Source: a virus | Length of the DNA stretch: 20,598 bases | IMG/VR virus record: IMGVR_UViG_3300031216_000083 | Location: 1-20,598 of that record | Direction: 5' to 3' (one strand) | Shown here: in pieces, positions 1-20,285 of the stretch | Layout: every line of letters begins with the position of its first letter | Numbering within the stretch: the first letter of the stretch is position 1 | Translations under genes and position numbers: made by a program | Notes under the pieces: generated by a model | The model's input: the letters and a program-made list of their open reading frames with translations, nothing else | What the model was told of the DNA's origin: nothing | Database searches by the model: none

Positions 1-277
1 ACTTGTATCAATGATTTTTTTGTGCATATACTCGGCAAGCCTCCCAATCCCTATCAGTTCGCTCTTCTCATCGGTATGATAGTATTGCACATATAGGTGC
101 AACAACTGTGCAAAAGTTTCTTGATCGTGTATTAGTCGCTTGGTTTCGGCTGTAGTTTTTACCACTTGGTTTTGCTACTTTGCTTAATTGACCTGTCAAT
201 GTTAGTGCACTTCAAAAGAGAAAGTTACTTTTATCTTCCTTGTATAGTCATCAGTCTGGAAAGTATTTTTTATCCAT
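1..277 (-). CDS. Start of a probable lysis enzyme (partial, runs off left end)
   Basis: ATG at 277-275 opens a frame with no TAA or TAG to the window edge, giving about 92 residues. The start overlaps the end of the upstream holin-like gene (TAA at 272-270) by 8 bases, as in holin-endolysin cassettes. The protein begins MDKKYFPDGGLYKED. Around residues 55-65 it has FCTVVAPICAIL, a cysteine-led hydrophobic helix that could be the nucleophile helix of a papain-like or other cysteine peptidase. That reading is an inference from a fragment. The gene holds five CGA codons (for example at 146-148, 125-127 and 71-73). Read as Trp they make the segment Trp-rich, as in many cell-wall enzymes; read as Arg they make it Arg-rich. 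I am fairly sure it is a real gene and unsure of its product. Confidence 0.55.
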
Positions 278-563
278 TATCCTTACTGCCAAACTCTAAA
301 TCCGGTAAGCTAATCTTTCATTCATTACTAGCTTTATACGATACAGTAGATGCAAAAGCAAACAAGATACCATTCACAATATACATCTTTAATGGGTATT
401 CTGGGAAAGCAAAGTACAATCACACAAAAACAACTATACCAAAAACAAATGGTATAAGAAATCTTGCCCACTTAGGTATTCATCCCTTTACTCCGTTAGA
501 TAGATAGATGATTAATGGTATAAGCATTGGTAGTACTGCTGTTAGTTCTGTAGAGAAGTCCAT
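270..563 (-). CDS. Putative holin (three-segment membrane protein, 97 aa)
   Basis: Reading frame from ATG at 563-561 to TAA at 272-270. The protein starts MDFSTELTAVLPMLIP and has three hydrophobic stretches: about residues 8-22, 34-52 (FLIPFVFGIVVFVG) and 57-75 (YIVNGILFAFASTVSY). A short charged tail follows, ending FGSKDNG. In-frame TGA supplies glycines in VKGGIPKW, FVGLYF and NEGKIS. Small size, membrane segments and the position immediately before a probable lysis gene, after the tail genes, fit a holin that permeabilises the cell membrane at the end of infection. No catalytic motif is visible. The assignment rests on topology and context, not on a recognised family. It is preceded by a second small membrane protein, so which of the two is holin and which is antiholin or accessory cannot be settled here. 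Confidence 0.65.
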
Positions 564-584
564 AATTATATATAAGAAAATAAA

Positions 585-791
585 TTACTTTTTGAATTTA
601 TTATTAATATACTTAGTTATCCAGTCTATTACCGCATCTGTTCCAACAAGAGCAATTCAAATTGAGACGAACCGAAGTCATTCCAGGACTCTCGGTATAT
701 CTCTCTCAACATACAGAAGCCATGTATACATTCAAGTCAAAAGTATAGTGACTATAACCCTCATTATCACACTTCAACTAGCTTGTGCCAT
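585..791 (-). CDS. Small two-segment membrane protein, holin or antiholin candidate (68 aa)
   Basis: ATG at 791-789 is preceded, 8 bases upstream, by a GAGG that can serve as ribosome binding site. The stop is TAA at 587-585. The product has two hydrophobic segments, near residues 12-28 (VIVTILLTGMYTWLL) and 40-56 (containing IGIALVGTDAV), then a basic tail ending NKFKK. TGA encodes glycines at residues 6, 20 and 46. A CGG codon at 674-672 (residue 40) sits at the start of the second membrane segment, where Trp is at least as natural as Arg. Size, topology and its place just upstream of the other small membrane protein and the lysis gene suggest a role in lysis. I do not recognise a specific family. 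Confidence 0.55.
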
Positions 792-1073
792 AATACCAAC
801 GCCTCAATAAAAGACCTATCACTATACCTAGTGTATACTCGATAAGAAATGACGTGTGTATAGAGTATATGACTACTCATATAATTAGTATAGACGAATC
901 TACCAACCAGTGTAATCACCTTACTTCCTTCAGTAATATGCTCATGCTATATATCAACAAACAAATCAAATAAAGAGAACTAGTGCTATTTCTTGCCAAG
1001 AATCCATCATAGTATAGATCATAATGTAAAAGCTATGTATTTCATAGTTATAGGTTATATATAAAGATGTTCT
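792..1073. other. Intergenic region before the lysis cassette
   Basis: This 282-base AT-rich gap separates the last adhesion gene from the lysis genes and is the longest non-coding stretch in the window. All three minus frames carry frequent TAA or TAG. The longest open stretch (880-764, 38 codons) has no convincing protein character. A 7-base inverted repeat with a 4-base loop lies at 866-883 (tatatga, ctac, tcatata). It lacks a T-tract and is not a typical terminator. A promoter for the lysis genes could lie here, but I cannot point to a clear -35/-10 pair. Confidence 0.5.
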
Positions 1074-1820
1074 CTATGCTGTAAAGTCCGCATAAGGCAA
1101 TCAAGATCAAGAGTTATAGAGTTGTGATACTTGTGTTGCAGTAAGTGCCTTTATCCAAAGTCCAACAGAGTCTAGCAATCAATTATAGAACCTTATGCTA
1201 GCCCCAGATCTACGTCATATCTTTATATCATTAGTGTTCACTATTAATCAGCTTTTGGTTGTTGTATCTACCTCCACTCAATCCGTATATAATCTCATTG
1301 TAGTACCATCATAAGTATATACAAAATGAGTCCACACCGTAGTACTAATTGTTTGTGTATCTTCTACAACATACCTTGTACTTTCGCTTGAGTGTTGATG
1401 CACTACACAGAAAGTGTTATCCGTTGAAATAGTTGTACCCTCAACACATACACCTATCTGTGTAGAATTATCATATCAGTTAGCATCATTACTAATGATA
1501 GTTTGCACCTTATTGTCGGTATCTGGCTTCACTCGAACACTATATGAAAAAGCATTACTACCAATAGATGTTCATGTGTCAAAAAATCAACCACTTTCCC
1601 ATCCGAGAGTATTATCAAAAGTACCACTTGCAATACAATCACCACTTGCAGATCAAAGTTTTTTATCTGATGTGTTATAAGAAAAACTAGAAGCAGTACC
1701 GTCATTACTATTTGAACTACTGTCATTGACGTTACTATCTAACTCATATAGCCAACGTAGGTCAGTTAGTAGTCAATTACTACTGGCTCTTTTATTAAAT
1801 CATAATCAACTTAGAAACAT
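1074..1820 (-). CDS. LamG / concanavalin A-like adhesion protein (248 aa)
   Basis: Frame from ATG at 1820-1818, two bases after the TAA of the upstream gene, to TAG at 1076-1074. The sequence shows the course of a LamG-type jelly roll: an opening strand near residues 29-42 (LYELDSNVNDSSSN, then NDGT), FSYSVWVKP near 91-99, a THFVYTYDG strand, a TDGVEV hairpin, IGRRSGAS, FYNGLLDSVGLW and the closing LTATQVSQLYN helix. The family pattern is close to 'fs.s.WvkP' and 'F.G.iDevgiw...Lt..ev..LYN'. The Trp of WVKP (residue 96) is written CGA at 1535-1533, and TGA codons supply several glycines. Such domains bind sugars; as the last of six fibre genes it probably contributes to host-surface recognition. 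A standard-code annotation would show only fragments here. Confidence 0.8.
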
Positions 1821-1824
1821 ATTA

Positions 1825-2307
1825 TTATGAAAGAGCTAAAACTTCTACTCAAAAGTAACTAGTACCATCATAGAGAAAACTAATTATATCAGTTGCACTT
1901 GCTGTTGTTGTTAGTGTCGGTGCTGTTCCTCATGGTCGTTTAACCGTTCAAGGTCGTGTAGCGATTCTACTACCTGTACCATCTTGTATTACTATTAACT
2001 GATAGTTTCAAGGTCAATCTGGAGCAGTGAAAGTATAAGTACAGTTACCAGTCAGAGTAGATTTTTGTATATTACCTGTTCCCCGATCAACTGTGTCTGC
2101 TGTGCTACTATTACCGTTATCTGTTACTGCGTCAACAGTTGCAAGTTGTACGTTCGAAGTTCCATTATTGAAGTATAGATTCTTTGAGTCCGTTGTGTAG
2201 TGAAGCTCCCCAGCACTCGCTATCGCATTCGTTACCAATGTGTTTATGTTTACGTCTAGTCACGACTTAGGCAGTATTTTGAACTCTACGTTATTGAGGG
2301 TTTTCAT
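1825..2307 (-). CDS. Tail fibre tip protein (160 aa)
   Basis: ATG at 2307-2305 overlaps the TAA of the upstream beta-helix gene by one base (TAATG). The stop is TAA at 1827-1825. The N-terminal part (MKTLNNVEFKILPKSG) leads to ASAGELHYTTDSKNLYFNNG near residues 31-50, a pattern common in modular fibre proteins. The C-terminal half carries a motif seen at many fibre ends: TWPGTVKWPGGTAPTL, then DIISFLYDGTSYFG. Both Trp of the motif, residues 118 and 124, are written CGA (1956-1954 and 1938-1936), and its last Gly is TGA. With arginine there the consensus would break twice. Probable role: structural or tip component of a receptor-binding fibre. The motif is recognised from memory of the family, not by a search. 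Confidence 0.75.
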
Positions 2308-3194
2308 TATGAAACACTTGCTACTCAAATAAGGGGACTCGTAGGCTTTAAGTGGAAGTCTCAATTGTTGGGGTCGACAAACAATGGATCTACCGTCGTT
2401 GTTCCTATCTCTCCGTCGGTATATGATACATTATTGAGGCATGAGTATGTTGTTGTTATATCAGCAGATCAACCACTTGAATTAACCACGTTGGAGTATC
2501 CACCCACTAATGTGCCTGATGCAAGCATCACTATACTGTTCTTGATAGTGATGGTTAAGTTACTAGACGATCAGTCTGTTCTCACCGAGAATATGTACCT
2601 TGGTATTAGTGTCCCAGCTATCTCAGTGCCATCGTTATAGAATAAGCAACTATTCACTGTCGTAGTATGCTCGCTATTGGCTCTATGTCATATAATAGCT
2701 CATCCTATAGCTCAAGATTGGTATCTACAGTTCCGAAAAATACACCTGTTTAATGTGGTGGTTGAGTTTTCGAAAATCCCACCCCTAGAACTGGTTGATG
2801 ATGAATCACCTCATGCAGTGCAATCCCTGAAGATACAACCGTTTATCGACGCTACATTGAAATTAGAAAACATAGATCTGTTCGTGCTTACAAAATTATT
2901 AGCAAACTGTATATTTGCAAGTGATCCTTGTGAACCACCAGCTGTTCTTAATATTGGGGTAGCCGAGTAGTCTAATATGGTGAGCTTTGCGTTACCGCTT
3001 GCAGAGTAGATGACTCTATCCCCCATGTCTCGGTCATCTGCTCCTACTGTCTGCACCAATGTCCCTTCGTTTACTATTATAGTGTCCGTATTACCAGTAT
3101 TATTGACTGCATATACCAAATTCAACCAAGGTGCACCACTCGATCAATCTCCTGTACTGTCGTTTCCTGCTGGATCTAGGTAGAATGTAGCCAT
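2307..3194 (-). CDS. Right-handed beta-helix (pectin lyase-like) tail protein (295 aa)
   Basis: ATG at 3194-3192 overlaps the previous TAA by one base; the stop is TAA at 2309-2307. The N-terminus MATFYLDPAGNDSTGDG with APWLNL is the usual opening of phage parallel beta-helix proteins. The body has irregular helix turns such as INGCIFRDC and NRCIF, and the end is DPLFVDPNNGDFHLKP followed by TSPLIG. That ending is the family's C-terminal consensus, and its glycines at residues 278 and 290 are both TGA (2363-2361, 2327-2325). Proteins of this shape form trimeric tailspikes or fibres that bind, and sometimes cleave, surface polysaccharide. I see no catalytic residue set that would prove enzymatic activity. 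It sits in a chain of coupled fibre genes. Confidence 0.8.
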
Positions 3195-4060
3195 TAGAAT
3201 GTTCATCATGATATAACTAAAGGTGTCTGATATATCCCAATATCCATCTTCATGTTCTGCACCATGGGCACTCAATCGGGATCAGTAACATCACTGTTAC
3301 CTGTTATGAGGCTGAGGTTATAAGGCTCGAAGTCTGTTACTTCTATGTCTACTGGATTCTCTGTATCGTCTGTCTGTATATTAACACCCGTCAGAGCAGT
3401 CTTCCATCATCAGTTGATGTAGAATTGTGCTATATCCTTATCTAAGATTGCGGCATTTGTTACCCTTATACTTCATCTCTCAGGGTCTGAGTTCTCCCCT
3501 ATGGAACAGTTACTGATCCTTTTGTTGGTTATGTACTCCAATCAGTACCCATCTAAGGCGCTCCCTTGCTCTACGCCAATATCTTTAGCGCCACGAGTAG
3601 GTTGTCGGTATCACGGCATTGCTTTCCGCACAGTCCCATCAAACAGGTATACTTGATGAGTGTCTGTAGACAATCCTGTGGTTACTACATCTGGCGTAGA
3701 TGATAGTATGTTGGCTTTCGTATCTTGTACTATATTATCTAAATCAGCTCGCTCAGTGTCGAAGTCTGTGTCGGTTGCTTTTACTAGTTTCTGTCCCGTT
3801 GTACCTCAAACAGCAATCCCTTGCCCATCTGCTCCGTCTGCTCCGTCTGCTCCATCTGTTCAAGCCGTTCAAGCTGGTCAAGGTGGTCACGACCCTCACG
3901 GGAATGTTGCTTTTATTACTGTTGTTGATATTATTGCGTTTATTTCTGTTGTTGATATTATTGCGTTTATTTCTGTTGTTGATATTATTGCGTTTATTTC
4001 TTTTGTTGATATTGTTGCGTTTATTTCTTTTGTTGATATTATTGCGTTTATTTCTGTCAT
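3194..4060 (-). CDS. Collagen-like tail fibre protein (288 aa)
   Basis: ATG at 4060-4058 overlaps the TAA of the BppU-like gene by one base; the stop is TAA at 3196-3194. Residues 3-47 are five copies of a 9-residue unit (EINAIISTT and variants). Residues 55-78 are a collagen-like tract, GPPGPAGTAGTDGADGADG. Glycine occupies every third position from 55 to 76, and those at 55, 58, 61, 64 and 67 are all TGA, so the triplet rule appears only if TGA is Gly. Next comes the fibre motif GTTGQKLVKATDTDFDTEW, whose Trp104 is CGA (3751-3749), then a beta-rich domain. Phage collagen tracts make stiff trimeric stalks between the baseplate and receptor-binding domains. A role in host attachment is inferred. 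Confidence 0.85.
3920..4054 (-). repeat. Five tandem 27-base coding repeats
   Basis: Five consecutive 27-base units, nearly identical, encode EINAIISTT or close variants (residues 3-47 of the collagen-like protein). The period is a multiple of three, so copy-number change by slippage keeps the frame. The repeat is protein-coding and has no spacers, so it is not a CRISPR array. It probably forms a regular beta or coiled stalk at the base of the fibre. Confidence 0.9.
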
Positions 4061-4410
4061 TATGATCTCTTGGTTACATCTTGAATTATTGAGAATATAC
4101 CACTCTCAATACTATTGATAATTCAATTCGTGAACTTGATCTGCAAGTCATAGCAATAATCCAAAACGGCAATATCTGTGTCGGTATTGGTCAACACAAT
4201 GTTAGTTAATCAAGCCGAAGCGTCGACGTGGCTTGTTTGATCTATCTCGATTAACGCCGTGTCGTCTGTTGCGTCTCATACGGTTGATTCTTTTCTAACC
4301 GTGAAATAGACGGTTGCGCCTGTCAAGTCAACTGCGACACCGTCTCAATCTTTCAAGTTGATGGATATGGTGTGATCGTCTCCGCGTATTACTTTTATTG
4401 TTGATGACAT
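4060..4410 (-). CDS. BppU-like baseplate / fibre-anchor domain protein (116 aa)
   Basis: ATG at 4410-4408 to TAA at 4062-4060. The protein begins MSSTIKVIRGDDHTISINL and continues with DGDGVAVDLTGATVYFTVRK, the pattern of the N-terminal immunoglobulin-like domain of phage upper baseplate proteins ('r.D...i.v.l....G..vDLTGatv.F.vr'). TGA gives glycines in DGDG, in TVGDATDD and in FTNG. Unlike the long BppU proteins of lactococcal phages, this one holds little more than that domain. It may act as an adaptor that fixes the neighbouring collagen-like and beta-helix fibres to the baseplate. Its stop overlaps the start of the collagen-like gene by one base, which fits coupled synthesis of interacting parts. 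Confidence 0.7.
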
Positions 4411-4437
4411 CGTTACATCTTGATAGGTAAAGATACT

Positions 4438-5892
4438 CTATAGTCAATAATATGGTATTTTCTTGTTGGTTCAATTGATGTTCACCGTGACGTATCACTC
4501 TGCATCTCACAAAGTCAATACTCACGTTGTGGCGCTTGTTGCAAGAGTTCAACTGATTGTTGAGGAGTTATTTATGATTGCAAGTTCTGTTGATGATATT
4601 CACACTCAAATCAGGTGTTCTCACGATGTACTAATTCATGTTCAAACAAGAGTTTCTGTTGTTATGACAAAGTAACGATCGTACGATGATACCGAATTCC
4701 ACGAGGAACTATAAAACGCATAGAAGTTACCTCAAGCGTATGGACTAGCACTTGTCCAATCCCATCTAAAATAGTTACTTGTACTTAATGATCCGCTTCT
4801 CTCTAATTCCACAAAATACGTTCCACTCGAAAATACCGTACCTCAAAGACTGAACACTTCTGTTGAATATGAGGAAGTTAGTGTCCCTCCCGCTATAGTT
4901 GTAGGGCTAGTATAGAGTAACGTTCATCAAGGGGAATTGTATATTTTCAAAACTAGATTATCTGTTGGCGAGTTGTTTTTAGATACTTTTAACGTTATGT
5001 TGTTAAGTTTAGTTCTTGCCGAGAGGGTAAATGTCTGTCCTCATTTTGTACCAGAACTAGACGAATAGCCAATATATGCCGTTGATCATGTGTTATTGAG
5101 TGATGTGGTATTCTCTATGTTTGGTCATGTTGAGTAAGCACCTAGAAAGTATTTCTCTCAAACAGTTAGACTTGATTGATTGGTATCTATACCACCAATA
5201 GCTACCGAAACGACTCAATCTGTTGCGATGTCTGCTTGCGCTATTCAAATTAATCAAACTTTATCTAGGTTGGTAGCATCTGTCTTATATACCTTGTTGT
5301 CTGATGAGTCTTGATAGAGTGTGTCTCATGCTGTCAAATCTTCTCATGCTGTAAAGTCTCTCACTAGCTGTTTTGTGCTTGCTTCAATGGTATCAAATGA
5401 CGGCGCGACTGATGCTCAATTTGATGTCAAAACCGTGCCACTAGCGCCAAGTCAAAGTTCAACCTCGTCTCCGTCCGCGTTTGTATGTGATACCTTCCAC
5501 GCTCAATTCCCTGTTCTCAATTCTCCAGCGCTATCCAACTTCGTTGTTTCCAAAGATTCAACTTCGTTTTGTATGTCCTCAATTACTTCGGCTGTTGCAT
5601 ATATGAATAAATAGTCGTTTGCACTAAATGCGACGGGTGTGTCCGAACTATACCCTCTTGTAACCGTTACGCTATCACTTGATCTTGCTGTGATTGTTAC
5701 CCTCTCCTTTTTTGTGACGTTACCGTCAACGTCGTATGCGATAAGTGTCCCGATACTCGTCTCTCCCGCACCATAACTTGGGAAGTTTGCACCCTCTCAA
5801 GCTTTCAAAACAACCGATGTTGCTACACTTGATATTCAAGCGAGGAGTTGCCCACCCGCGTCATCTTTTACTTTATATTTCTTGAAAGTCAT
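4438..5892 (-). CDS. Large tail fibre / receptor-binding protein (484 aa)
   Basis: ATG at 5892-5890, one base after the TAA of the hub gene, to TAG at 4440-4438. Segments seen in order: a beta-rich N-terminal domain opening MTFKKYKVKDDAGGQLLAG; a short helical stretch near residues 88-104 (EVIEDIQNEVESLETTK); a middle domain with TLYQDSSDNKVYKTDA and GLIGIAQADI, typical of phage fibre collar domains; a jelly-roll-like module (GQTFTLSARTKLNNITL, then PTDNLVLKIYNSPGG); and a Gly/Ser/Thr-rich C-terminus ending KKIPYYGL. TGA codons are frequent and several fall in Gly-Gly pairs. The jelly-roll module resembles carbohydrate-binding modules of secreted proteins. It is the first and longest fibre gene after the hub, so it is the best candidate for the main receptor-binding protein. 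The exact function is inferred. Confidence 0.7.
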
Positions 5893-5893
5893 G

Positions 5894-6922
5894 TTATTGT
5901 GATAATAATGATAAAGATTTCTCTATACTGTCGTAGTCACTCAAATATAATGTCGCGACGTTCTCTCTGTATATAATTTTCTTGATTGATCTGAAGTTGG
6001 TCGCGCTTTCGTTGCTCTTATTCATTATTCTTACTGTATCACCTATGTTGATAGTTTCAAGGTCGTATTGAGAGTTGACCGCCAAAATTGTTTGTTCGTT
6101 CGGGTCTTTTTTGTTGGCAATCTCGGTGTCTGCTCTAATCACTCCCGTCGGGTCGTCGTTTATTGCTGTTGATCTTACGATTGATTGAAGCAACCCGTAC
6201 GTTGTTTGGCTTGTGGCATCTTGACTGCTCTCTATTCAAGCCGTATGTTTGACGTATACAAAATTCGACATTGTCAAACTGTCGGTTGTTCTTGAAAACT
6301 CTGAAATATGTTTTTCAAACGTCAACTTGTGGTCGGCGGTTGTTTCGTCTATTGCTTGAAACACGATCGTTCCGTCGGGTAAAAAGTCGATATAGTGTTC
6401 GATATTACTCATTATCTTATTGAGCGCCGTCAAACCTGTGTCATAATCGAAGTCGATCACAAGGTTTGTTCAATAGCTTGTGATGGTCGTGTCAAAGATA
6501 GTCCGACCCCTATTTGTATTCACTACTGTCAATATTTCGGCAAGCATTGTTGCGGGGTCTGCTGTCCTTGTGAAAGTCTCGTTGCTTGTATATGTGTACA
6601 AACAATGTTTCAATATTGATTGCATACCGTCGATTCTGATGTCAATATACTCTTTACTATCTTTGACGATCTCGGTGTATAAACTAATATACCCCCTATA
6701 CACTAACACCGCTCAATAATAAATATATACAACATCAAAAAGCGCTAAGTCGTTTGCGCTGTGTAGCGTATCATAAGACAACGTGACCGCTCAATATCCT
6801 TGGTTGATTGTACGGGTGAACTCTACCCCGCCCGTCTTCAATTTACTATTGAGTAATGTCTTTTTGAATACGTTGTCTTTGTCGTGAATCTTATAGGTAT
6901 ATTCTTTATACATACGTTCCAT
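5894..6922 (-). CDS. Tail hub / tail-associated lysin-like (Tal) protein (342 aa)
   Basis: ATG at 6922-6920 overlaps the end of the distal tail gene by 17 bases; the stop is TAA at 5896-5894. The product starts MERMYKEYTYKIHDKDNVFK and contains TGGVEFTRTINQGYGAVTL and LVYRGYISLY, which match the opening of siphovirus hub proteins that cap the tail tube below Dit. It ends with a beta-barrel-like part (INIGDTVRIMNKSN, ENVATLYLSDYDS). At 342 residues it is about the length of the hub domain alone, and no C-terminal peptidase or lysozyme domain is visible. TGA glycines include those at 6713, 6470 and 6236 (plus-strand positions). The position between Dit and the fibres is diagnostic for the hub. 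Its CGG codon (in NRGWTIFD) is neutral on the Trp question. Confidence 0.7.
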
Positions 6923-7736
6923 ATCGTAGAATATAAACGTCGGCTTCTCGTGTACCGTTTATTGTCACCGTAAATTCGTTACTACCAACCTCAAGCGAAG
7001 GGAATTGACCGCTGTAGTCGTGTCATCAAGTACCGTTCAACAATACTTCTTTGTCTTTACAGTTGATGACAAGGTCGTCTCACGGTGCGAAAGTGTCTGT
7101 GACGGTGATTGTTCTATCTCCAATAGTGAATTGCGCTTCGGTGACTGTCGTGGTGGTGTTGAAGTTCACTAATATCGTTGGAGTCGCTCTAATACTTCAT
7201 TCGACATAATTCACCGTGCTTATTTGGTCTGCTGTCAAACCTTCATAACTTTCTTGTGACTGTGTTATGTCATAGAAAAACGGGTCTGCTGTTTCTCGTC
7301 CGATCTGTATATTTGGTAGGAACGTCGTTTGGTAGTATTTTCTATTCGTTACGAACTTTGTGCAAGTTGCCGTTGTTCGCAAAACACGACCATCAAGTCT
7401 TCTGTATGATAGTACCTTTTCGCTTTGTACTACCTTGGACTTCATTGCGGTCAAGTTCGCTTCTAATTCTTCGACGGTGTCACCTTTCAATAAAGTCTCT
7501 ATATTGATAGTTTTGTTTCTTATGTGTCGTCAATAAACACCCTGTCAATGATCATTCGCAACGTTGTAAGTTTGGTACTCGATACCGTTCACGTCCTCAA
7601 TCGTTGGCAACTCACTCAATCTGACGCTTCAACTATCAAAAGAGAAGTTGTCAAATTCTAGCAACGTATAAACGGCGCTTGTTGGGACTAGTCCCGTATT
7701 ATACTGCTGTGTGTTGTATTGAAATGTATTGAACAT
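6906..7736 (-). CDS. Distal tail protein (Dit, siphovirus tail family; 276 aa)
   Basis: ATG at 7736-7734, 15 bases after the tape measure stop, to TAA at 6908-6906. The N-terminal part has the family order: FDNFSFDSGSVRLSELPTIE, an HIRNKTINIETLLKGD strand pair, and a helix EELEANLTAMKSK. A dense strand region ends in ADPFFYDI, where the family has 'dPf.yd'. The C-terminal galectin-like half contains TIGDRTITVTDTFAPGD and SNEFTVTING. TGA codons supply, among others, the Gly of VEGSI and GTGGHDYSG. Dit forms the ring joining the tail tube to the hub and fibres. The order tape measure, Dit, hub supports the call as much as the sequence does. Confidence 0.75.
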
Positions 7737-7750
7737 ATATTTGTTTGTTA

Positions 7751-9880: not shown

Positions 9881-9894
9881 AGGTTTCAAGTGCG

Positions 9895-10370: not shown

Positions 10371-10412
10371 TCTCTTGTTTTGTTACTTGTAAAATACTTG
10401 TTTTTTATTGAA

Positions 10413-10434: not shown

Positions 10435-10444
10435 AAATCTTTAT

Positions 10445-11392
10445 CTAGTAACCTGTTGCGTTGTCGTTGATCATTGTCGCCTTCACGCTGTACCCGTCTG
10501 TATTGTTGTAACTGGCAACAAATCCAACTGTTTGTGTTACGATTGCGTCGTTGTCGTCTGAACTATCCCAAGATTCGAACGCTACCTTTGCAAAGGTGAA
10601 ACTTAATGTTGGGTTTCCACTAACGGCAAGGTCAACGTCGGGGTTGATGAACTCAATTTTCATATATTGTTTTGTCCCGTCTCTTGCTATTACTTGATAA
10701 TCTGTATTTGAAAAGATTGCTTCGAAGTCACCCGAAACATCGAAGTTTTGGTTGAATATTTTATCAATGTCTACTGATCAAACTGATTGGTGTACCATCA
10801 AATTTTTCTCGATATTTAGATTAACGCTGTTTACACTTATTGCGGTTGCTCCTGCCAGTCCTCATTCGGTGCTTGCGAAATATACTTTACAATCTTTTGC
10901 TCTGAATAGTGTTTCGCTTGCGTATGACACCGTTGGCGCTGATTCGCTTGTCCCTTTCTTTCCTAGCATATTACAAGAAAACGTTGCGTAGTCTTCTGCT
11001 TCAACGCTTATGTTCAATGATTGTACCATTGAATATGTTGACGCAACTGTTCCGACTGGGTCAACCCCTCGAATACTGAATGATGGGTGGCAATTGGTGT
11101 TTGATCTTGTGAAGGCATGTGTGTACGGTCAACTTCACGATTTTGCAACCGTTCCAAGCGCTCAAAGCAATAATAAACCGAAACTATCGTCCGTGATAGT
11201 TCATTCGATGTTTGTTTCTGTGTGTTCTTTGACTGTTTGCACATCATAAACGGTATCGATTACACCATATCAAGCCGTATCTTTCAACGTCTCAATGACT
11301 GGCTTTAATAGTCCGCTAGTTTTTGCAAGTCGATCTGTTGCCGAAACTTGTGTCCCTGCTGTTGTCTCCTTCCCTATTCCAATAGCTTGCAT
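10445..11392 (-). CDS. Major tail (tube) protein (315 aa)
   Basis: ATG at 11392-11390 to TAG at 10447-10445. The sequence opens MQAIGIGKETTAGTQVSATD, with the 'G.e...GT.v....w' start typical of tube proteins; residue 21 after SATD is CGA (11332-11330), and Trp is the usual aromatic there. The body is beta-rich: DTVYDVQTVKEHTETNIGTI, the GLLLLGALGTV helix, YTHAFTRSN, YSMVQSLNISVEAEDY, and NKNLMVHQS-like strands (NIEKNLMVHQS). It ends with a domain from MKIEFINPDV to ATMINDNATGY, including FTFAKVAFESWD. TGA provides many glycines, for example in GSGPY and TAGYG. Polymerised hexamer rings form the DNA tube. The position directly before the chaperones supports the call. Confidence 0.8.
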
Positions 11393-11460
11393 TCTTCCAA
11401 TGTGTGCCGTGCATGTCATAATTATAGTTGTTTATTACTAAAATTGCTTGTTGGTTGTTC

Positions 11461-11607: not shown

Positions 11608-11619
11608 TATTACATTATA

Positions 11620-12024
11620 CTAACAAAGTAAAGTTGTGTAAGTTGCTTTGATCAATGCCACTCTCGTTGGCTGTTCGTCATCTGAATACGCCCGTTCAAT
11701 ATCGAATTGCGCTTTGTTTACCGATCAAGTCAAGTATTCGTCTCCCCTCAATCCAGTTAGTATTGCATCAACGATTGTTCTTATTGTTACCTCCGCAACT
11801 GCAATGCTCTCACTTCTAACGTACACCGCAATCACGAATGGTATATCAATCATATTTGCGTTGCTTGAATAGATCTTTTCTACTGTTGACGTTGGTGTTA
11901 TTGTTGCGTATGGATACCCGCTGTCGCCGATTTTCTTTTCATAATTATATACGAAATTCAAATCGGTTGTTGCAATCAACCCGTTCACTATATCGAATAC
12001 CTTATCTCAAACTGCAATAAACAT
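11620..12024 (-). CDS. Tail terminator / tail completion protein (134 aa)
   Basis: ATG at 12024-12022 to TAG at 11622-11620. The order of elements is that of tail terminator proteins (lambda gpU, SPP1 gp17 type): an N-terminal helix (VGDKVFDIVNGLI), a strand with YEKKIGDSGYPYATITP, a second strand MIDIPFVIAVYVR, a helix EVTIRTIVDAILTGL, and a last pair NKAQFDIEWAYSDDEQP and RVALIKATYTTLLC. In-frame TGA gives Gly before SVNKAQ and in VGDKV. The CGG at 11694-11692 (residue 111) falls in IEWAYS; Trp or Arg would fit. It caps the tail tube and joins it to the connector. Position and fold order make this the likely role. Confidence 0.65.
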
Positions 12025-12058
12025 AATACATATATGATATAAAAGCAACGTTCTTTAT

Positions 12059-12457: not shown

Positions 12458-12743
12458 TTTCGTTTCTGATTTGTACCTCGTAAAAATTAACGACAATACT
12501 GTTTCTGTGTTTTACTTTCTTAACGATGTACGCCTTTGCGTCCTCGTCGATTACTTTATCGCCTATTTGTAGTCACGAAAACACCGTTAACAGACGTTGC
12601 TCGTTCTGTGCCCCTTCTACTCCATTCATTGCATCTTGTGCGTCTGATTGCTCATAGATATAGACGTCGATATTGCTATCAACGGTCGTTGCGAATGTGT
12701 CACCTCTGAACACGCTGACTTGGTGGTTTGGGTATACAATCAT
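12450..12743 (-). CDS. Head closure / head-tail joining protein candidate (97 aa)
   Basis: ATG at 12743-12741 overlaps the connector stop by one base (TAATG); the stop is TAG at 12452-12450. The product is beta-rich: MIVYPNHQVSVFRGDTFATT, IDVYIYEQSDAQDAMNGVE, then LQIGDKVIDEDAKAYIVKKV and SIVVNFYEVQIRNEND. The 'GD.v....k.y.V..v' strand pair is common in the SH3-like head closure proteins that follow connectors in siphoviruses. It shows no motif strong enough for a family name. The place between the connector and the gp10-like gene is the usual place for the stopper protein that keeps DNA in the head. Confidence 0.55.
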
Positions 12744-13312
12744 TATACGGCGTATATATCAATAAATTTGTATTTCCCTATAATCCTATCGATGATTGTT
12801 TTTTGGTTTGTGCTTGTACCGAACGTTTCGTCTGTGCTTGAATATGAAACGCTTATGTCTCCTTGTGAATAACTCGAAAGCCCGACCCCTTTTGCTTTCG
12901 CTTGTAGTCATCATACAAGAATAAACATAGCGTTTTTTATGTCTGTTGGTATTGTCTCGAATCAAGAGGTGTATGTAAATTCTATATAGTCCCGTTCGGT
13001 TGATTTCGCTTCTAGTGTAACAGAATTTGCAAACAGGATTGTCCTTCCGCTCAATATATATTCTGTGCCTTCTGTGTATGATACCCCAACGCCGTTAATT
13101 TCTGTTATTGCGTTTCCTCTTGGGTGTCTCTTGAGGTAGTACGGTCAATTGGCGTTGTATTCATGTCTCTCTGTGGTTGAATCGTCGTGGAAAGATTCTA
13201 CATTACAAAGAGAATGCAGAATATTTTCTGCTTGAGATATGTATATATTGACAAGTGTATCTTTTCAAGATAACTCCAAGAAAGCGTTTGCTTCCGCAAG
13301 TGTGATGTACAT
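12743..13312 (-). CDS. Head-tail connector (adaptor) protein (189 aa)
   Basis: ATG at 13312-13310, 6 bases after the previous stop, to TAA at 12745-12743. It begins MYITLAEANAFLELSGKDTL and continues NIYISQAENILHSLCNVESF, the helical opening shared by gp6/gp15-type adaptors ('mitlaeak.fL.i...d..i..li..A...ie...'). The middle has YYLKRHPRGNAITEINGVGV, DYIEFTYTSGFETIPTDIKN and AMFILVGGL; the 'y.sGf..iP.dik.A...l' segment is the signature of the family. Several glycines are TGA, including LELSGK, SGFETIP and a double one in VGGL. Adaptors form a ring under the portal. Confidence 0.8.
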
Positions 13313-13318
13313 GTTTTT

Positions 13319-13621
13319 TTATTTGTTATCTTTTGAAACTTTCCCTTTCTTTGCAATTACTTTCTTTGTGCTTGCGTCTGTTGTTTGAATCTCTCTGTCT
13401 GCAAGTATTTCTTCACATATAATAAAATTGTTTGATAGAAAATAATGTATCTTGTTTGATGGTACTTGGATTGTCTTTCCTTTCTTGACGATCTCTTTGT
13501 CCGCCCCGTCTGTTACTCTGATCAATTGGTCTTGTGTTGCTTTTACGTTGATTGTCTCCATTTTGTCGTTTTCATAATAGACTAAAGCCTTTTTTGTGTC
13601 ATATCCAGAAGCATACAACAC
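13319..13621 (-). CDS. Unknown small protein after the capsid gene (about 100 aa; start uncertain)
   Basis: The frame ends at TAA 13321-13319 and is open far upstream, overlapping the capsid gene. I place the start at GTG 13621-13619 because a purine-rich GGGGAGGGG (13644-13636) lies upstream and because the segment KKALVYYENDKMETINVK reads like real protein. An ATG at 13561-13559 would give an 80-residue product. The body contains QDQLIRVTDGADKEIVKKGK, QVPSNKIHYFLSNNFIICEE and a Lys/Ser-rich end. Repeated 'kkGk...v' elements suggest small beta-barrel repeats. It could be a head decoration or accessory protein, as the gene after a capsid gene often is. I do not recognise a family. Confidence 0.5.
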   Translation of the reverse strand: MLYASGYDTKKALVYYENDKMETINVKATQDQLIRVTDGADKEIVKKGKTIQVPSNKIHYFLSNNFIICEEILADREIQTTDASTKKVIAKKGKVSKDNK

Positions 13622-13649
13622 AAGAAAGGGATTAACCCCTCCCCAATAA

Positions 13650-14660
13650 TTAAATAGTAACGTTGATTGCACAAGCAACTGAATCTGTTGATTTGATCTT
13701 CAACGCGTATCTTACGTGTCCTGTGAATCTGAATTGATCGTATTCAGGCAAGTATTCTGTGAATACTTGTAGCCCTCTCTTGAATCCATGAATAAGATCA
13801 GGTTTGTAAACAAGTAACATTCTTCCCGTTGTGTTGTTTGATGATGTTGTTGATATTTTACCGTCCGCTTCTGCGTTTCCTAGAAGTGATGTTGGCAATA
13901 CTTCAATACCGTCAATTGCACTAAGTGTTCCGTTTACGACTGTTGCTCTACCTCCGAATTTTTCGACTGTTTCTGCTTGTCCCAATCAAAGAAGTTTGTA
14001 ATAAACATCTGTTGAAGGTATCAATAACAAGTCACTAGGATCAATTCATTTTAATCCAAGAAGTTTCCTCATACCTCTGATGTCTGCTAAGTCTAACGCT
14101 CCAGCATTAACTGTCGCACTATTTGTAATAGCTGTTTTTACTAACCCGTCTTGGTGTAGGTAGTATGTTCCAGCTGTCGGCGCACCGTCATCACTATTAA
14201 CATTTCCAGTTGATGCTGTAACAACATCACCATTAACGACAACTCCGTCAAGTAGTTCTTTGTAACTCTTTGCGAATTTGTCTCCCAAGAAGGTATTGAT
14301 GTTCACGATTGAATCGTCATCAAGTTCACCCGAAGCATATACGGAAGTACTGTACTTCTTAGCAACCAATACAACTTCGTCTGTCCCAGCAACGTTTGCG
14401 TTTTCGCTTGTTGCATACCATGTATTGTCTGATCATTCAACGGGCATTGTGTACGTTGATGTCGGCATTACAATCGGAGCGTTCAATCTTGAAACGATTG
14501 TGTTTGCGTCTCTAACTGACGCAAGAACTGTTGACGCCAAATCTGATGGTACGAAGTCTTGCCCGTAACCGTCTTGTCCTGTTGACATTGATTCATTTGC
14601 TCTTGTCTCTACTCATGCAATGCTATTTTTAAGCATAGCTAATTTTTCTTCTCTGTTCAT
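13650..14660 (-). CDS. Major capsid protein, HK97 fold (336 aa)
   Basis: ATG at 14660-14658 to TAA at 13652-13650. The short N-terminus (MNREEKLAMLKNSIAG) leads to GQDGYGQDFVPSDLASTVLA, the N-arm and E-loop entry of HK97 capsids. Then come RLNAPIVMPTSTYTMPVEG, NINTFLGDKFAKSYKELLDG (spine helix), KLLGLKGIDPSDLLLIPSTD, YYKLLGLGQAETVEKFGGRA, GTLSAIDGIEVLP and a C-terminal RMLLVYKPDLIHGFKRG, where HK97-type proteins have the 'd...~g..r' strand. The glycines of LKGIDPSD and LLGLGQ are TGA. There is no long delta domain, which fits scaffold function residing in the protease gene upstream. Trp in NTWYATS is TGG, so TGG also still codes Trp. Confidence 0.9.
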
Positions 14661-14680
14661 GTTTAATAAATTGTAATTGA

Positions 14681-15916
14681 TTAAATACCGTTTTTAAGTC
14701 CTTTGAGCATTTCGACAAACGGTTCGCCTTGTGCCTTTTGTTCTTTCAAGTTGTTGTGTGTGGTTACAATTGGTTTGTTGACCGCCCTTTTGTCAAGTTT
14801 GGCTTGTAACTCACTAACCCTTCAAATCAAATCGTCAATAATTTTATCATTGAACGACCTTTCTTCACTCAATTCAAATTGTAATTCTTCTATCGTCTTT
14901 TCACTTGCTTGAGTTTCGGCTGTTGCCGTGTCGGGATTTTCACCGTCACTTCCCTCGTCGTCTTGTGAATCTTCAATAGCTATGTCGATTTCTTCAATCG
15001 TTTCGTTTGTGGTTGTTGTGTCTTCTTCTTTTATGTCGCCTTTTACTTCATTGTCATCAATCTCTTTCCCCTCTCCTTCTGTTTCTTCAATATTCGTTGG
15101 TTGTTCTTTTGAACCCTCTGATCAATCTGTTTTGTTTGTTTCTTCAGTTCATTCTGTGGTCTTGTCTTCGCTTGGTGGTGTAATAGTCGTTTCAACGGCT
15201 GTGTCGTCGTTAGATTCGTTTGTGTCACTTGTCTCTGCTGTTTCTTCTGTATTTTCGTCTGTTTCATCTGTTTCTGTTGTTGCTTCGGCTGTTGTCTCCT
15301 CTGTTTCATTGTCTATTTTACTAGTAAATGGATTTTCGTTGTCCTTCACCAAATACCTTTCCGCAATCTGTCTTGTCTCTAACTCTGTGAAAAACGCTCT
15401 CAATGCTTTACTGATTGTGAATAGTGATTGAGCGTTTGCGGGTACGTTCACGACGCTCAATTCAACAATGTCAACCGCTGTAATAACTCTTACTATATTT
15501 TGGTAGTCCATTGCTTCTTGCTCCTCTTGTGTCATCTCTGACAATAGTTTGCTTGTTGCTCTGTCAATATAGTGTCGTGCTAATGGAATGAATCCAATAG
15601 AGAATCATTTTGTTCTTCACTCGGTCACGTCCGACATTACACCGTCTGTGTCTTTGGTTATGTCTGCGGTTACTTTCCAACCCTTCTTGTCAATACTCCA
15701 ATCGGTTACTGTCCCGATAGGTTTTGCGCTGTCGTGTCCCAATAGTAAAACGGGGTTTTTTTCGTAATTCTCCAACCCGTTTTGTATTGCTTCAACCTCG
15801 ACGATTGAGTTGTATCTATCAATTGACGGCGTACTTGCGTAACCTTGGATTGTGATTTTACCCTCTCTTACTTCCACTCAAGTCAATCACATTTGGAATT
15901 GCACGATTTTGTTCAT
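14681..15916 (-). CDS. HK97-type prohead protease fused to an acidic linker and scaffold-like coiled coil (411 aa)
   Basis: ATG at 15916-15914 to TAA at 14683-14681. Residues 15-170 are an S78/U35-type prohead protease: VREGKITIQGYASTPSIDR, VLLLGHDSAKPIG with His61, and EGRTKGFSIGF with Ser106, then DIVELSVVNVPAN. Gly100 and Gly104 are TGA and fit the family pattern. From about residue 200 to 330 the chain is a Thr/Glu/Asp-rich low-complexity linker. The last 80 residues form a coiled coil (EKTIEELQFELSEERSFNDK, then IGRVSELQAKLDKR) and a tail MLKGLKNGI. This looks like a protease-scaffold fusion, so one protein may build the procapsid and then cleave itself and the capsid precursor. The gene lies directly before the capsid gene, which lacks a delta domain. 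Confidence 0.85.
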
Positions 15917-15940
15917 GTGTCATAATATACTTGTAAAAAG

Positions 15941-16678
15941 TTAGTTTGTTATCTCGACGTTAGTTGTGCATCTGCACCTTGGGTTGCTGTGTCTCGGTGC
16001 TTTGTTGTCTCCACTTGGTCGGTTTTGTTCGTATAATATCCAGCCTTGTGCTTCGTTGTTTCTACATTCGGGTGTAACTTTGTCGTCGCCTACTGTGTCC
16101 CATATCTTTTTCATTACATACCCTTGCCTTTTCAAGTCATCAAACGCCGTATATCTCCCGTTTTCGTAGGCGTTCCCTACTTGGTTTATAGCGATCAACT
16201 CCGATCTTGCCTTTGAGAATAATCAAGCGTCTAGTTGTTTGCGAATAGTTTTCCCTATCTCTGTATAACTTTCTCAATCGAAAACCCCTCAAGATATAAT
16301 ACTCTTGATCTTGTTGAACGTGGTCTTGTTGATACTGTTATCTATACTTGTGCTTCATAATGATGTCAAGCTATCAACCCGCTTGACCGCCAAAAGATTG
16401 ATCTTGCTCAAGTCAACCGCTCACTTGACCGCCTTGTTTACATATCTTGATCACAACTTGAAAAGGTTTGCAAGGTCTCAATCTAGCCGTGATCAACGTG
16501 TCTTGATCATTCGGTTGTTGATGTACAACTCGACGTCGTTATTCAACGCCCTTTCGGTCTCTTGTGTTTCGACGATCTGAATGATACCGTTTCATAACGT
16601 GCGCAAGTCTTTCGAAAGCCTCTTTGCAAGTCTACGTTCGGCTCTCTTGATAACTCTCTTTTGTGACTTAAGTTTCAT
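15941..16678 (-). CDS. Minor head protein, Mu gpF / SPP1 gp7 family (245 aa)
   Basis: ATG at 16678-16676 overlaps the portal stop by 11 bases; the stop is TAA at 15943-15941. The N-terminal two thirds is helical and basic (MKLKSQKRVIKRAERRLAKR). The C-terminal part shows the Mu F homology: SELIAINQVGNAYENGRY, DTVGDDKVTPECRNNEAQG, and SGDNKAPRHSNPRCRC, with Cys205, Cys235 and Cys237 as probable metal or disulfide ligands. The residue before PSGDNK is CGA (16021-16019, residue 220); the family has an aromatic there, which supports Trp. TGA gives many glycines. These proteins sit inside the head near the portal and are made in few copies. Confidence 0.85.
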
Positions 16679-17864
16679 CTGCGAAAATGTCACTCAATCA
16701 CACATCAACCAATTTATCGTATGACTTGGATATTAACGGTTGGTCGGCTTCGTCTATTCCTTCATAAGGTTCATATCATAATTCGGCTCTTGCTTCGTTT
16801 GCTGTGATAAGTCCGTTTCTCATTTTGGATTCTATGATATCAATCTTCTCTTTGTTTATTTCGAATGTTGTGTCAACGATGTGAAATACAAGGTCTTCTG
16901 TCTGTAGCGCTTCGTTGATTCGTTTCTCCACCCTCTTTTCAAATGGTGCGGCAGTCTGTTCGATGAACTTCTTGAATTGCATGTCCGCGTTGGTGTAGTT
17001 AACTCCGTCGGTATATCCAAGCATTACTTTGGGAACACCGAAAGCGCTACATACTCTATTGGTGTTGAAGCCCCTCATAACCTCAAATTGCATATCGGCA
17101 ACGCTGTCTTGCATCTTTTCAATTCCTGAAATTCCTCTCAACATTCCAATCTTATGTTTGTTTTTACCTCAAGAGAAATTCTTTTTCATTTGTGACATTA
17201 CTTTCGTCATTTCGGCGTCGCTTATGTCGTCCGACATTGTGAGAATCATCGAAGGAATTGCGTTGTTCTTGAAATAATGATAATTCATAAGAGAACTCTC
17301 GCTGTCGGACAATATCTCTATAATTATACCCTCCAAAGTTGATAATCAAAAAATTTCATTATCGGGGTCAAGATCGTCGTAACAATTGACGATCTCGTCG
17401 GGGGTGTATGTATTAACGACACCACCGTTGACAAATTGTTCATACGCCAAAACGTCACCGTATTCGTCGGCCCTTACTCTCACCGTCCTCGGGTCAATGG
17501 TGTCTAATCCGATCAAGACACCGCTGTCATTCAATAACCTTACAATATAAGCATTTCACCCGATAAGTAAGTCCCTAATGATTTTGTTTTTTAGTGTCCT
17601 TCGTCCTTTCCCGTACTCCATTACTGCGGTATAGCTTGCATCTGTCGCAACGTCCTCACCACTCATAAAGAAATATCAGTCCGACCCGATACTGTCTTGG
17701 TGTTCTTTTACGCAACGCCTGACGTCGCTGTTCTTTCTGTAATACTTATAGTACATATCGACGTTTGTTGTCGGTGCTTCTGTCTGTCAACCAAAAAATC
17801 AACCTGTCTTTTGTGCTGACGGTTGATTGACGGCTCTTCTGATCTCATACCCAAGAATATTCAT
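16668..17864 (-). CDS. Portal protein (HK97 family, 398 aa)
   Basis: ATG at 17864-17862 to TAA at 16670-16668. The sequence runs: MNILGYEIRRAVNQPSAQKT, a Gly-rich linker GGFFGGQTEAPT, NVDMYYKYYRKNSDVRRCVK, the conserved RDLLIGGNAYIVRLLND core, IDPRTVRVRADEYGD, TPDEIVNCYDDLDPDNE, SGGKNKHKIGML, MQFEVMRGFNTNRVCSAFGV (crown/wing helices), MLGYTDGVNYTNADMQFKKF and the helical C-terminus with GLITANEARAELGYEP. Double glycines in KTGGFFGG are partly TGA. CGA occurs at residue 88 (before RTLKNK) and 315 (in EKWINEAL); Trp is plausible at both. Twelve copies form the DNA channel at one capsid vertex and the dock for the terminase. Confidence 0.9.
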
Positions 17865-17929
17865 AGCCCTATTCCTTCAAAATAAATATACGTTTTATAT
17901 ATATATTGTAGGGCAATAATTAGTCAACG

Positions 17930-18127
17930 CTATTCTTGTTCTGCCCGCCAAGCCTTCACTATTACTTCTTTGACCGCTTTCTTCTTTCTTAAATAGTCCC
18001 TTTCGCTTCAAGTCAATTCGTCTCTCACATCAAACCGCATTGTTTTACGCTCCTTATAGTGAAGTCTTCAAATAACTTTGTAACTCTCGGGCAAGTCACA
18101 ATTCTCTATTGTCGAAAATATATCCAT
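17930..18127 (-). CDS. Small unknown protein between terminase and portal (65 aa)
   Basis: ATG at 18127-18125 starts 9 bases after the large terminase stop; the frame ends at TAG 17932-17930. The product begins MDIFSTIENCDLPESYKVIG and continues RLHYKERKTMRFDVRDELTG and RKKKAVKEVIVKAW. Two glycines are TGA. It is charged and helical in its second half, with a predicted strand pair in the first. A 65-base AT-rich gap separates it from the portal gene. I do not recognise it; by position it could be a packaging accessory protein. Confidence 0.5.
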
Positions 18128-18136
18128 AGCATCATC

Positions 18137-19408
18137 TTACATGAATAAAGCGGTGACCGTTCAACGTTTGAATTTGGTCGCTCCATAAAGAGCCGAATCA
18201 ATGCAATGATCGTTTCAATCCTCGGGAACATCAAGCGACACTTGCGTTTTCTTGTCAAGCATTCGGCTATATTCTGCGACCTCTTCAACTAAGTGTGCGC
18301 CGTTGATATATATATCATATTGCTTGATGTTGTCGATTTGTTCGTTTTTACTATTCTTGTACTTCTTTACTCACTTGATACGATACCCCGCTTTCTTTAT
18401 GTCTGCAATCATTTCGGGGCGGGCGCTGTCTGCTATAATCAACGTATCTTTCGGCACGTCTTTGGCTTCCATCTCTCTAATCAAGTCTTGACTTGTCTGT
18501 CCTGTGCTGAATATAATTTCTTGAATGTATAGTCTTTTCCTTGGTTTGGGTGTTGCTTGCGTTGTCTTTTGATCAACCTCGACTGTTTCGTTGTCGTTTG
18601 GTGTAATTGTACTGTAGGCAATGTCCTCAATCCTTAGATATGTCATTGCGTTCGGGTCGTTGAATCCAAAATCCAACCCAATCACGTGGGGTTTGATGTC
18701 GTGTTCAAATATTTCGTAGCTTGGGAATATTGACCCTTTGTTTCACTCTCACCATTCATTCATTGCGTATATTTTCCACTTCGCTTTGTTTTTGTACTTG
18801 AGAGCGTCCAACGAATCCAAGTAGTCTTGTCAAACGAATTTGTTGTCTCGTGCCGTCTTCTCAATCCATATGGCATTCTTTCGTAACTTCTTCTTGTCGT
18901 ATATCTCTTTCTTTAATCGATGCCTTGCCGAGACTGGGTTGAATATTCATATAATCTTATGATTGCTCCCTCCTCTTAATCTAAGATCTAGTTGTGTAAA
19001 CTCCTCGTAAGTTATCTCTGTCATTTCCTCAACAACAAAAACATCAAACTGCGCGATTGATTTTATTTTCTCTGCGTCATCTAATCCAAACATCATAGCA
19101 AAGCCTTTGTCTGCGATAATGTCTTTGTTCTCTTTACATGTTATATAGTCTCACACGCCAAAGTCTTTGATGACGTCCTTTGCTAGTTGTAAGCATGACG
19201 CTTTTAGTGTCCTTGATACCTTACGGAAGAATCAAACCCTCAATCAGTCCAATATCTCTTGTATAATCAACTGCATTACTGCGTACGACTTACCCGCTCC
19301 CGCTCAACCCTTTAAGAATATGTATCTTATTTTTGGGTCGTCCATCGCTTCAACGATCTCTTGTATTCGATCAACATATAGTGTCTCGTCATCGAAGTCG
19401 ATTATCAT
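18137..19408 (-). CDS. terL: Terminase large subunit (423 aa)
   Basis: Two-domain packaging motor: an N-terminal ATPase drives DNA into the head and a C-terminal nuclease cuts concatemers. ATG at 19408-19406, TAA at 18139-18137. Walker A is GGAGAGKS at residues 34-41, with Gly35 written TGA (19306-19304). Walker B is DVFVVEE near 122-128. The adaptor region has NPVSARHRLKKEI and NEWGEGNKGSIF. The nuclease site shows GLDFGFNDPNA (Asp246), IIADSARPEM (Asp327) and CIDSALYG (Asp404). Residue 382, in EYSWMLDK, is CGA where the family has 'Y.W..dk', supporting Trp. Overall length is normal. TGA also encodes the glycines of VGFFRK, FGVGDY and EDGNDH. The gene is intact; only a standard-code reading breaks it. 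Confidence 0.95.
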
Positions 19409-19458
19409 GTCTTTTTGTTGGGTAAAATATTTCCGTATCTACGGTGCAACATTTCTCA

Positions 19459-19884
19459 CTAGCCCGCTTTCTTACTGGGTTTTACTTTTGGGTGTTTTGT
19501 GGTGTCGTTGGTCTTGTTGTCCTCTTTTGTTTTCATTCCAAGAATCAAGTCCAACATCTCGGTCTTAGTTAGTCTCGGGGGCTTCTTCGTGTTCAATATG
19601 TTTGTGTACATAGGATTCAACGAATAAGCGTTGTCGGTGTAGTATACTGTGATTGTGTACTTGTCGCCCGTTGCTATCTTATTGAGTTCGTCCAACTTCT
19701 CTTTGACCTCTTTGTTGTCCTTGTTGAAGTCCAACATCTTTTTGAAGTGTTTTTCGGTCTCGTTGGTGTTGATGTTCTCTTCAAACACTTGCAACGCAAT
19801 CTCTCTCATTCGTTTCTTAACTCCAAACATTATAATATCCATACATAATAAAGTTGTTCTTATTTCTCTGTCTGTTTCCTTCAC
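19459..19884 (-). CDS. Unknown helical protein between the terminase subunits (about 141 aa)
   Basis: The frame ends at TAG 19461-19459. I take GTG at 19884-19882 as start, overlapping the small terminase gene by 25 bases, because the resulting N-terminus (KETDREIRTTLLCMDIIMFG) is continuous with the helical protein after it. ATG at 19842-19840 is the alternative and gives 127 residues. The body has REIALQVFEENINTNETEKH, DNKEVKEKLDELNKIATGDK, the strand YTITVYYTDN, and a Lys/Thr-rich C-terminus ending PSKKAG. It contains no TGA. A CGA in VKKWMREIA is neutral. I do not recognise a family. The place between the two terminase genes suggests a role in packaging. Confidence 0.55.
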   Translation of the reverse strand: MKETDREIRTTLLCMDIIMFGVKKRMREIALQVFEENINTNETEKHFKKMLDFNKDNKEVKEKLDELNKIATGDKYTITVYYTDNAYSLNPMYTNILNTKKPPRLTKTEMLDLILGMKTKEDNKTNDTTKHPKVKPSKKAG

Positions 19885-20285
19885 ACTTTTATAATTTCGA
19901 TATTGGTGTTGGTCTGTTCAACCTCTGTCTTTAAACTAAATTCGTCTTTGCCCTTTCTCTCCAATCGTCGCTTGTCGGCGTCCTTGTCTTGCCCGCTGTT
20001 TATTCTCTTAACCATATTAGTTTTCGCCTTTATGTTGGGACTTTTTTTAAGTATAGTCCTTTTTCTTGCGAAAGTAGGATTCTTCCTCAAGTACATATAA
20101 AAGGTTTTCGGGTCAATCTCTGCGACCAAACACGCTTCGGTATCGGTCAAAGCGTTCATAAACGCCGTTTCTAGTTTCGCAATAACTTCTTTTGTCATTT
20201 TGGTCGGTCTGCCCCCTACATTCTTCTTGCTTTTGTTCTTTGTTCCTTTTGGTCTTCAACCTTTGTTTACTGGTTTTTTATCCAT
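19860..20285 (-). CDS. terS: Terminase small subunit (141 aa)
   Basis: DNA-recognition subunit of the packaging motor. ATG at 20285-20283, 3 bases after the preceding stop; TAA at 19862-19860. The start is NKGGRPKGTKNK, a typical terminase or DNA-binding opening, with Gly10 written TGA (20258-20256), and VGGRPTK follows. Residues 47-68 (TDTEACLVAEIDPKTFYMYL) form a helix-turn-helix as in small terminases ('td.eAc..agis..tfY.wl..np'). Near the end is WWLERKGKDEFS, which matches the family's 'A.wyLerk..deF'; both Trp, residues 106 and 107, are CGA (19970-19968, 19967-19965). The tail EIIKVGRKQTEK is reached by reading one more TGA. It lies just upstream of the unknown gene and the large subunit. 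Confidence 0.8.

Follow-up and report, generated by a model that had tools for sequence, protein, structure and literature searches.

The viral record IMGVR_UViG_3300031216_000083, analysed here over its full length of 20,598 bases (hereafter the window), is a tailed-phage contig whose genes lie on the minus strand and read TGA as glycine. Searches with PHROG and Pfam profiles identify a Caudoviricetes gene set, namely the small (TerS) and large (TerL) terminase subunits, portal, head protease, major capsid protein, distal tail protein (Dit) and tape measure, together with a Mu F-like protein, an adaptor and tail genes, fibres and a Laminin_G_3 protein. Open reading frames (ORFs) of at least 100 amino acids cover 43% of the window with the standard code (code 11) and 95% with TGA as Gly (code 25). 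The subject of this work is a second deviation, the use of CGA and CGG as tryptophan codons, which an initial annotation of the sequence had proposed for CGA and considered probable for CGG. The survey of bacterial codes mentioned in that annotation is the Codetta study of Shulgina and Eddy from 2021 (PMC8629427), which predicted UGA = Gly together with CGA and CGG = Trp for the Absconditabacterales (SR1) within the Absconditabacteria; a statement from 2026 likewise gives Trp as the meaning of CGG and CGA in Absconditabacterales.

Results

The 27 ORFs of the window contain 26 CGA and 12 CGG codons (about 40 and about 18 per 10,000 codons), next to 28 TGG, 184 TGA and 207 other Arg codons (127 AGA, 58 AGG, 18 CGT and 4 CGC). 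Read as Trp, CGA and CGG would make up 38 of 66 Trp codons (58%). As anticipated in the initial annotation, NCBI table 25 alone would then mistranslate the phage, placing a wrong residue at 38 positions and thus at over half of the tryptophans.

The meaning of the codons was assessed by a Codetta-style procedure, in which CGA and CGG were masked as X before the window proteins were aligned with those of related phages, and each of the 20 amino acids was then scored as the possible meaning of the codon from the residues found opposite. The final scoring drew on empirical distributions of residues and on a set of relatives enlarged for the fibre, TerS and LamG proteins; scores are given in nats. 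In such a masked test TGA returns Gly (+35.8; runner-up Ser +5.5). Hereby, 29 CGA/CGG sites were alignable, and with all relatives Trp scores highest (+23.3), followed by Tyr (+15.0) and Phe (+7.5), while Arg is strongly disfavoured (-24.7). The corresponding values for Trp and Arg are +18.1 and -28.6 with standard-code relatives only, and +14.6 and -15.9 with relatives using TGA = Gly only. For CGA in the window, Trp (+18.2) is ahead of Tyr (+8.6) and Arg (-18.1), which gives strong support to the Trp assignment of this codon, as do the related phages described below. With BLOSUM62 and fewer relatives, the masked CGA/CGG sites gave Tyr 8.8, Trp 7.6, Phe 5.1 and Arg -15.0, and 56 of 60 control codons returned their accepted meaning. 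In line with the proposal that Arg is written AGA, AGG, CGT or CGC, the first two score Arg first, and the latter two score Lys, then Arg, over few sites.

Relatives were found by scans with the major capsid protein (13650..14660, minus strand, as for all genes below), which itself is without CGA or CGG, and with its alignment. Eight of them use TGA = Gly (L184, nearly identical to the window, L185, L186, L187, L209, L213, L214 and L216) and five do not (L210, L211, L212, L215 and L188). In the TGA = Gly relatives, CGA and CGG account for 14% of the partners of TGG, compared to 0.3% of the partners of other Arg codons, an approximately 50-fold difference. Pooled over the family, CGA scores +82.1 for Trp and -53.2 for Arg (65 sites), and CGG +29.2 and -22.4 (25 sites), the Trp value for CGG being +26.9 when the window is omitted. 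The Trp meaning of CGG is thus carried by the pooled family data and by the host tRNAs, whereas in the window alone CGG is clearly aromatic and not Arg, with Trp (5.2) and Tyr (6.3) not separable.

At the level of individual sites, named here by the first base of the codon, the strongest is CGA 18919 (18917..18919; NPVSARH-W-LKK), which was not among the examples of the initial annotation. It lies in the TerL gene (18137..19408; Terminase_3/PBSX type, PHROG/Pfam) in a near-invariant Trp column, with Trp in 8 of 8 phages and TGG in the relative L216. The same gene contains CGA at 19369, 18883, 18850 and 18265; CGA 18265 (18263..18265; EYS-W-MLDK) stands opposite Trp or Tyr in relatives, and CGA 18850 opposite Leu, Lys or Arg in distant phages, the close relative L216 having TGG at both. 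When CGA and CGG are translated as Trp instead of Arg, the score of TerL against phrog_6672 rises from 77 to 83.2 bits. TerS (19860..20285; PHROG) carries the adjacent codons CGA 19970 (19968..19970) and CGA 19967, the first of which is Trp in 3 of 3 Streptococcus phages; relatives have Trp followed by Tyr opposite the pair, and the PHROG score increases from 57 to 65.2 bits. In the tail fibre protein (1825..2364; PHROG), standard-code phages have Trp at CGA 1956 in 5 of 5 cases, at CGA 1938 in 3 of 5 and at CGG 2085 in 2 of 4, and two PHROG scores increase (42.2 to 53.6 and 36.0 to 50.3 bits). The LamG-like lectin protein (1074..1820; Laminin_G_3), with CGA 1535, gains against both PHROG (43.9 to 50.7 bits) and Pfam Laminin_G_3 (80.6 to 87.7 bits).

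In the tail protein of PHROG 290 (10445..11419; 97.4 to 100.4 bits on the change to Trp), relatives carry TGG or CGA at CGA 11332 and CGA 11071. The tail-terminator-like protein (11620..12048) has CGG 11694, opposite CGG, CGA, TGG, Phe and Trp among relatives, and the head-tail adaptor (12743..13312; PHROG, 57.5 to 58.4 bits) has CGG 12994, opposite Phe, Trp, Tyr, Thr and Asn. CGA 15577 of the head maturation protease (14681..15916; PHROG, 81 to 82 and 43.4 to 47.9 bits) aligns to Trp, Tyr, Phe, Val and Ile. The Mu F-like head protein (15941..16708; PHROG, 47.0 to 49.4 bits) contains CGA 16513, CGG 16489, CGG 16381 and CGA 16021, of which 16381 stands opposite Tyr in 5 of 5 relatives and 16021 opposite mostly Phe. 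In the portal protein (16668..17864; PHROG), CGA 17603 aligns to Phe, Tyr or Leu and CGA 16922 to Trp, Met, Phe or Val. Dit (6906..7736) has five CGA codons (7529, 7379, 7298, 6950 and 6926), of which 6926 is matched by Trp or Tyr, 7298 by Phe or Leu and 6950 by Tyr or Ala; its HMM scores are mixed.

All nine codons named in the initial annotation (1535, 1956, 1938, 3751, 19970, 19967, 18265, 16021 and 12184) are in-frame CGA or CGG codons, and 1956, 1938, 19970, 18265 and 1535 are strong sites. For 19967 and 16021 an aromatic residue is borne out, but Trp itself is not individually supported, and at fibre codon 3751, where the change from Arg to Trp barely moves the profile scores, Trp is not individually shown. 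CGG 12184 in the gp10-like protein lends no support to Trp, the aligned residues being Phe, Pro, Ala, Gly and Lys; 2085, 11694 and 12994 are better CGG sites. A separate feature of the fibre genes is found at the N-terminus of a fibre (window 4060-3194, residues 1-47), where a near-perfect tandem peptide repeat (TEINAIIST / KEINATIST) precedes a collagen-like GPPGPAGTAG.

To characterize the host code, bacterial stretches were drawn by a DNA motif for GHVDHGKT in which the first Gly codon is TGA. It picked out 41 stretches on genome contigs, and almost all of these belong to Gracilibacteria or Absconditabacteria. In short gene stretches of four Absconditabacterales genomes, the partners of CGA and CGG are 123 Trp and 0 Arg. 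Among the stretches labelled Gracilibacteria, a few CGA/CGG codons align to Trp in five (L010, L014, L023, L038 and L042) and to Arg in two (L031 and L037); the host border of the reassignment may be wider or patchier than the order, the labels being those of the submitters. Host tRNAs were identified with Rfam RF00005 and ARAGORN. In six Absconditabacterales genomes (G001-G004, G024 and G041), tRNA-UCG and tRNA-CCG have G73, lack A20 and mostly show A/G1:U72, like tRNA-Trp(CCA), and the tRNA-Arg species UCU, CCU and GCG carry A20 and A73. Hereby, tRNA-UCG was assessed in six genomes and tRNA-CCG automatically in five, the tRNA-CCG of G041 being read by eye and showing the same ending; for tRNA-UCG of G003 and G004 the automatic call at N20 is A, but visual inspection shows that G18-G19 are followed by G. 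A clear tRNA-Arg with anticodon UCG, which the initial annotation had named as an outcome contradicting its proposal, was thus not found in these six genomes. Nor does CGA align to Arg columns, the other such outcome.

The ordinary reading of CGA and CGG as Arg, under which the Trp matches would be chance picks, has in its favour that it applies in almost all organisms and that a few variable sites lean towards it. However, Trp is favoured over Arg at 24 of 29 CGA/CGG sites and at 14 of 14 TGG sites, compared to 8 of 103 for AGA, 5 of 42 for AGG and 0 of 16 for CGT/CGC. For 20 sites scored with family phages only, the difference between Trp and Arg is 31.5, and none of 100,000 random draws from genuine Arg sites reaches the observed value (null maximum -12.1). 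Moreover, the same masked method does return Arg for the related contigs L228, L210 and L212. We therefore see next to no chance that the codons retain their ordinary meaning. Reassignment to Tyr, Phe or a mixture of aromatic residues would agree with the many aligned Tyr and Phe residues and with the scores of CGG in the window alone. Yet the TGG columns of the TGA = Gly relatives show a similar mixture of Tyr and Phe, Trp is clearly ahead for CGA in the window and for the pooled CGA and CGG, and the host tRNA-UCG and tRNA-CCG resemble tRNA-Trp, so that this possibility is exceedingly improbable. Chance, Arg and Tyr/Phe were rejected on the masked alignments, the pooled family scores and the host tRNAs.

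Several observations weigh against the assignment to Trp in a phage of the Absconditabacterales. Five of the 29 sites (12184, 16513, 17947, 18850 and 7379), all in variable columns, lean towards Arg, and the portal PHROG score drops from 184.6 to 179.9 bits (-4.7) with Trp. With the window and family phages only, Trp beats Tyr in just 77% of bootstraps; the two are told apart by the more distant relatives, by the pooled data of the family and by the tRNAs. Furthermore, a search of 353 genomes of the class revealed no CRISPR or DNA link between the window and a host, but only short, weak, mostly simple-sequence DNA matches without adjoining array-like repeats. The host, presumably an uncultured dwarf bacterium, would be a member of the Absconditabacterales, as judged from the code and the phage family. 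A DNA-level search against named phages gave no match to the window. Window positions 552-617, an AT-rich segment with weak DNA matches across many genomes of the class, are probably simple sequence.

At the protein level, a portal profile search detected homologues in 11 of the 353 genomes, including the Absconditabacterales genomes G022, G023, G024 and G041, whose homologues are distant. CGA scores as Trp in the Absconditabacterales contigs L231 (G041; Trp +8.1, Arg -3.7) and L232 (G024; Trp +16.7, Arg -4.0). A TerL profile hit within the Absconditabacterales only G021, without in-frame TGA, and one further weak match. The two loci of this bin (L081 and L083) encode PBSX-type large terminases and may represent a TGA-avoiding phage or contamination.

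A different picture emerges for the related contig L228 (G069:C31:1-15664, 56% GC), which belongs to a genome outside the Absconditabacterales. It has in-frame TGA with weak support for Gly (+2.6, 8 sites), and its CGA (Arg +8.7, Trp -40.1) and CGG (Arg +9.0, Trp -28.9) score as Arg. The tRNA-UCG and tRNA-CCG of G069 have A20 and A73 and are thus Arg-like. L228 could be misbinned, though its codons agree with the tRNAs of G069. Four TGA = Gly relatives of 25-26% GC (L187, L214, L229 and L230) have at most one CGA or CGG in the counted ORFs and would thereby be compatible with both readings. In a tree built on the capsid protein alone, in which several forks are weak, the window clusters with L185, L186, L187 and L209, and L213, which reads the codons as Trp, groups with L211, which reads them as Arg (97/93). 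This grouping suggests more than one change in the meaning of CGA and CGG.

Discussion

In conclusion, the phage is very probably translated with the code of the Absconditabacterales, in which TGA is Gly, CGA and CGG are Trp, and Arg is written only AGA, AGG, CGT and CGC. According to the host genome sequences, CGT and CGC would be decoded by a tRNA-Arg with anticodon GCG, and AGA and AGG by the UCU and CCU tRNAs, while tRNA-UCG and tRNA-CCG with tryptophan identity elements would bring Trp to CGA and CGG. Its genes show a fit to such a code, and the phage would use the tRNA pool of its host, on which it appears to depend because its contig is without a tRNA gene. The notion that the phage shares the sense-codon change of its host is hence borne out with respect to the Absconditabacterales, and we infer the same for its own host.

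Two variants of this mechanism have to be considered. In the first, tRNA-UCG and tRNA-CCG would be charged partly with Arg besides Trp, so that the proteins are statistical mixtures. Charging is beyond the reach of sequence comparison and some CGA columns tolerate many residues, but CGA and CGG occupy near-invariant Trp positions of the terminase and fibre, which speaks for the insertion of mostly Trp, and A20, on which PMC8629427 relied as the Arg element, is absent from both tRNAs; ambiguous decoding is thus very unlikely. In the second, the phage would encode its own Trp-tRNA for CGA and CGG on a missing part of its genome, with the host reading Arg. The record may be a fragment, and the Absconditicoccaceae phage RSA-ATP1 carries a suppressor tRNA-Gly (PMC13059738). 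Against this stand the lack of a tRNA in any of 20 related phage contigs and the location of the prophage-like L231 and L232, which read CGA as Trp, in genomes with Trp-like tRNA-UCG (both) and tRNA-CCG (G024). A phage-borne tRNA is accordingly regarded as quite unlikely.

The host code itself is already known from the prediction of 2021. All three reassignments and the tRNA logic (GCG for Arg, UCG/CCG Trp-like) are alike in the window and in PMC8629427, where they were described for bacterial genomes, whereas here they would operate in a phage, whose share of CGA and CGG among Trp codons is above most host figures given there. Two AGG = Met phages of recoded Bacilli (PMC8629427), likewise without the relevant tRNA, provide a precedent for phages following a sense-codon change of the host, albeit with another codon, amino acid and host phylum. 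The phages and prophages of Absconditabacteria and Gracilibacteria in PMC10746230 and PMC13059738 share TGA = Gly and the host group, but were read with code 25 alone, in which CGA and CGG stand for Arg; a term search of the two papers found no mention of CGA, and the mentions of Trp seen concern other matters. In Anaerococcus and Onthovivens (PMC8629427, PMC13092985), CGG has also passed from Arg to Trp, yet CGA stays Arg and these bacteria are unrelated. A description of CGA and CGG as Trp in the phages studied here was not found in the open full-text literature, subscription papers and preprints lying outside the scope of the search. What appears to be new is that L228, a contig of the same group with in-frame TGA, would read CGA and CGG as Arg, and that the tRNA-UCG and tRNA-CCG of its genome G069 are of a clear Arg type.

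The comparisons confirm a reassignment that would be shared with the Absconditabacterales. The related phages form an unusually good collection, in that they appear to differ in how CGA and CGG are read. Phage proteins under selection thereby lend independent support to a predicted bacterial code, including its sense-codon change. It seems rather likely that a sense-codon barrier has been crossed repeatedly within this one phage group, related phages using Trp where the host has Trp-type tRNA-UCG/CCG and Arg where these are of Arg type, with very AT-rich members, in which CGA and CGG are scarce, as possible bridges. With relatives in which these codons mean Arg, the group constitutes a natural experiment on how viruses cross such a barrier, and barriers of this kind are what recoded organisms depend on for their resistance to viruses.

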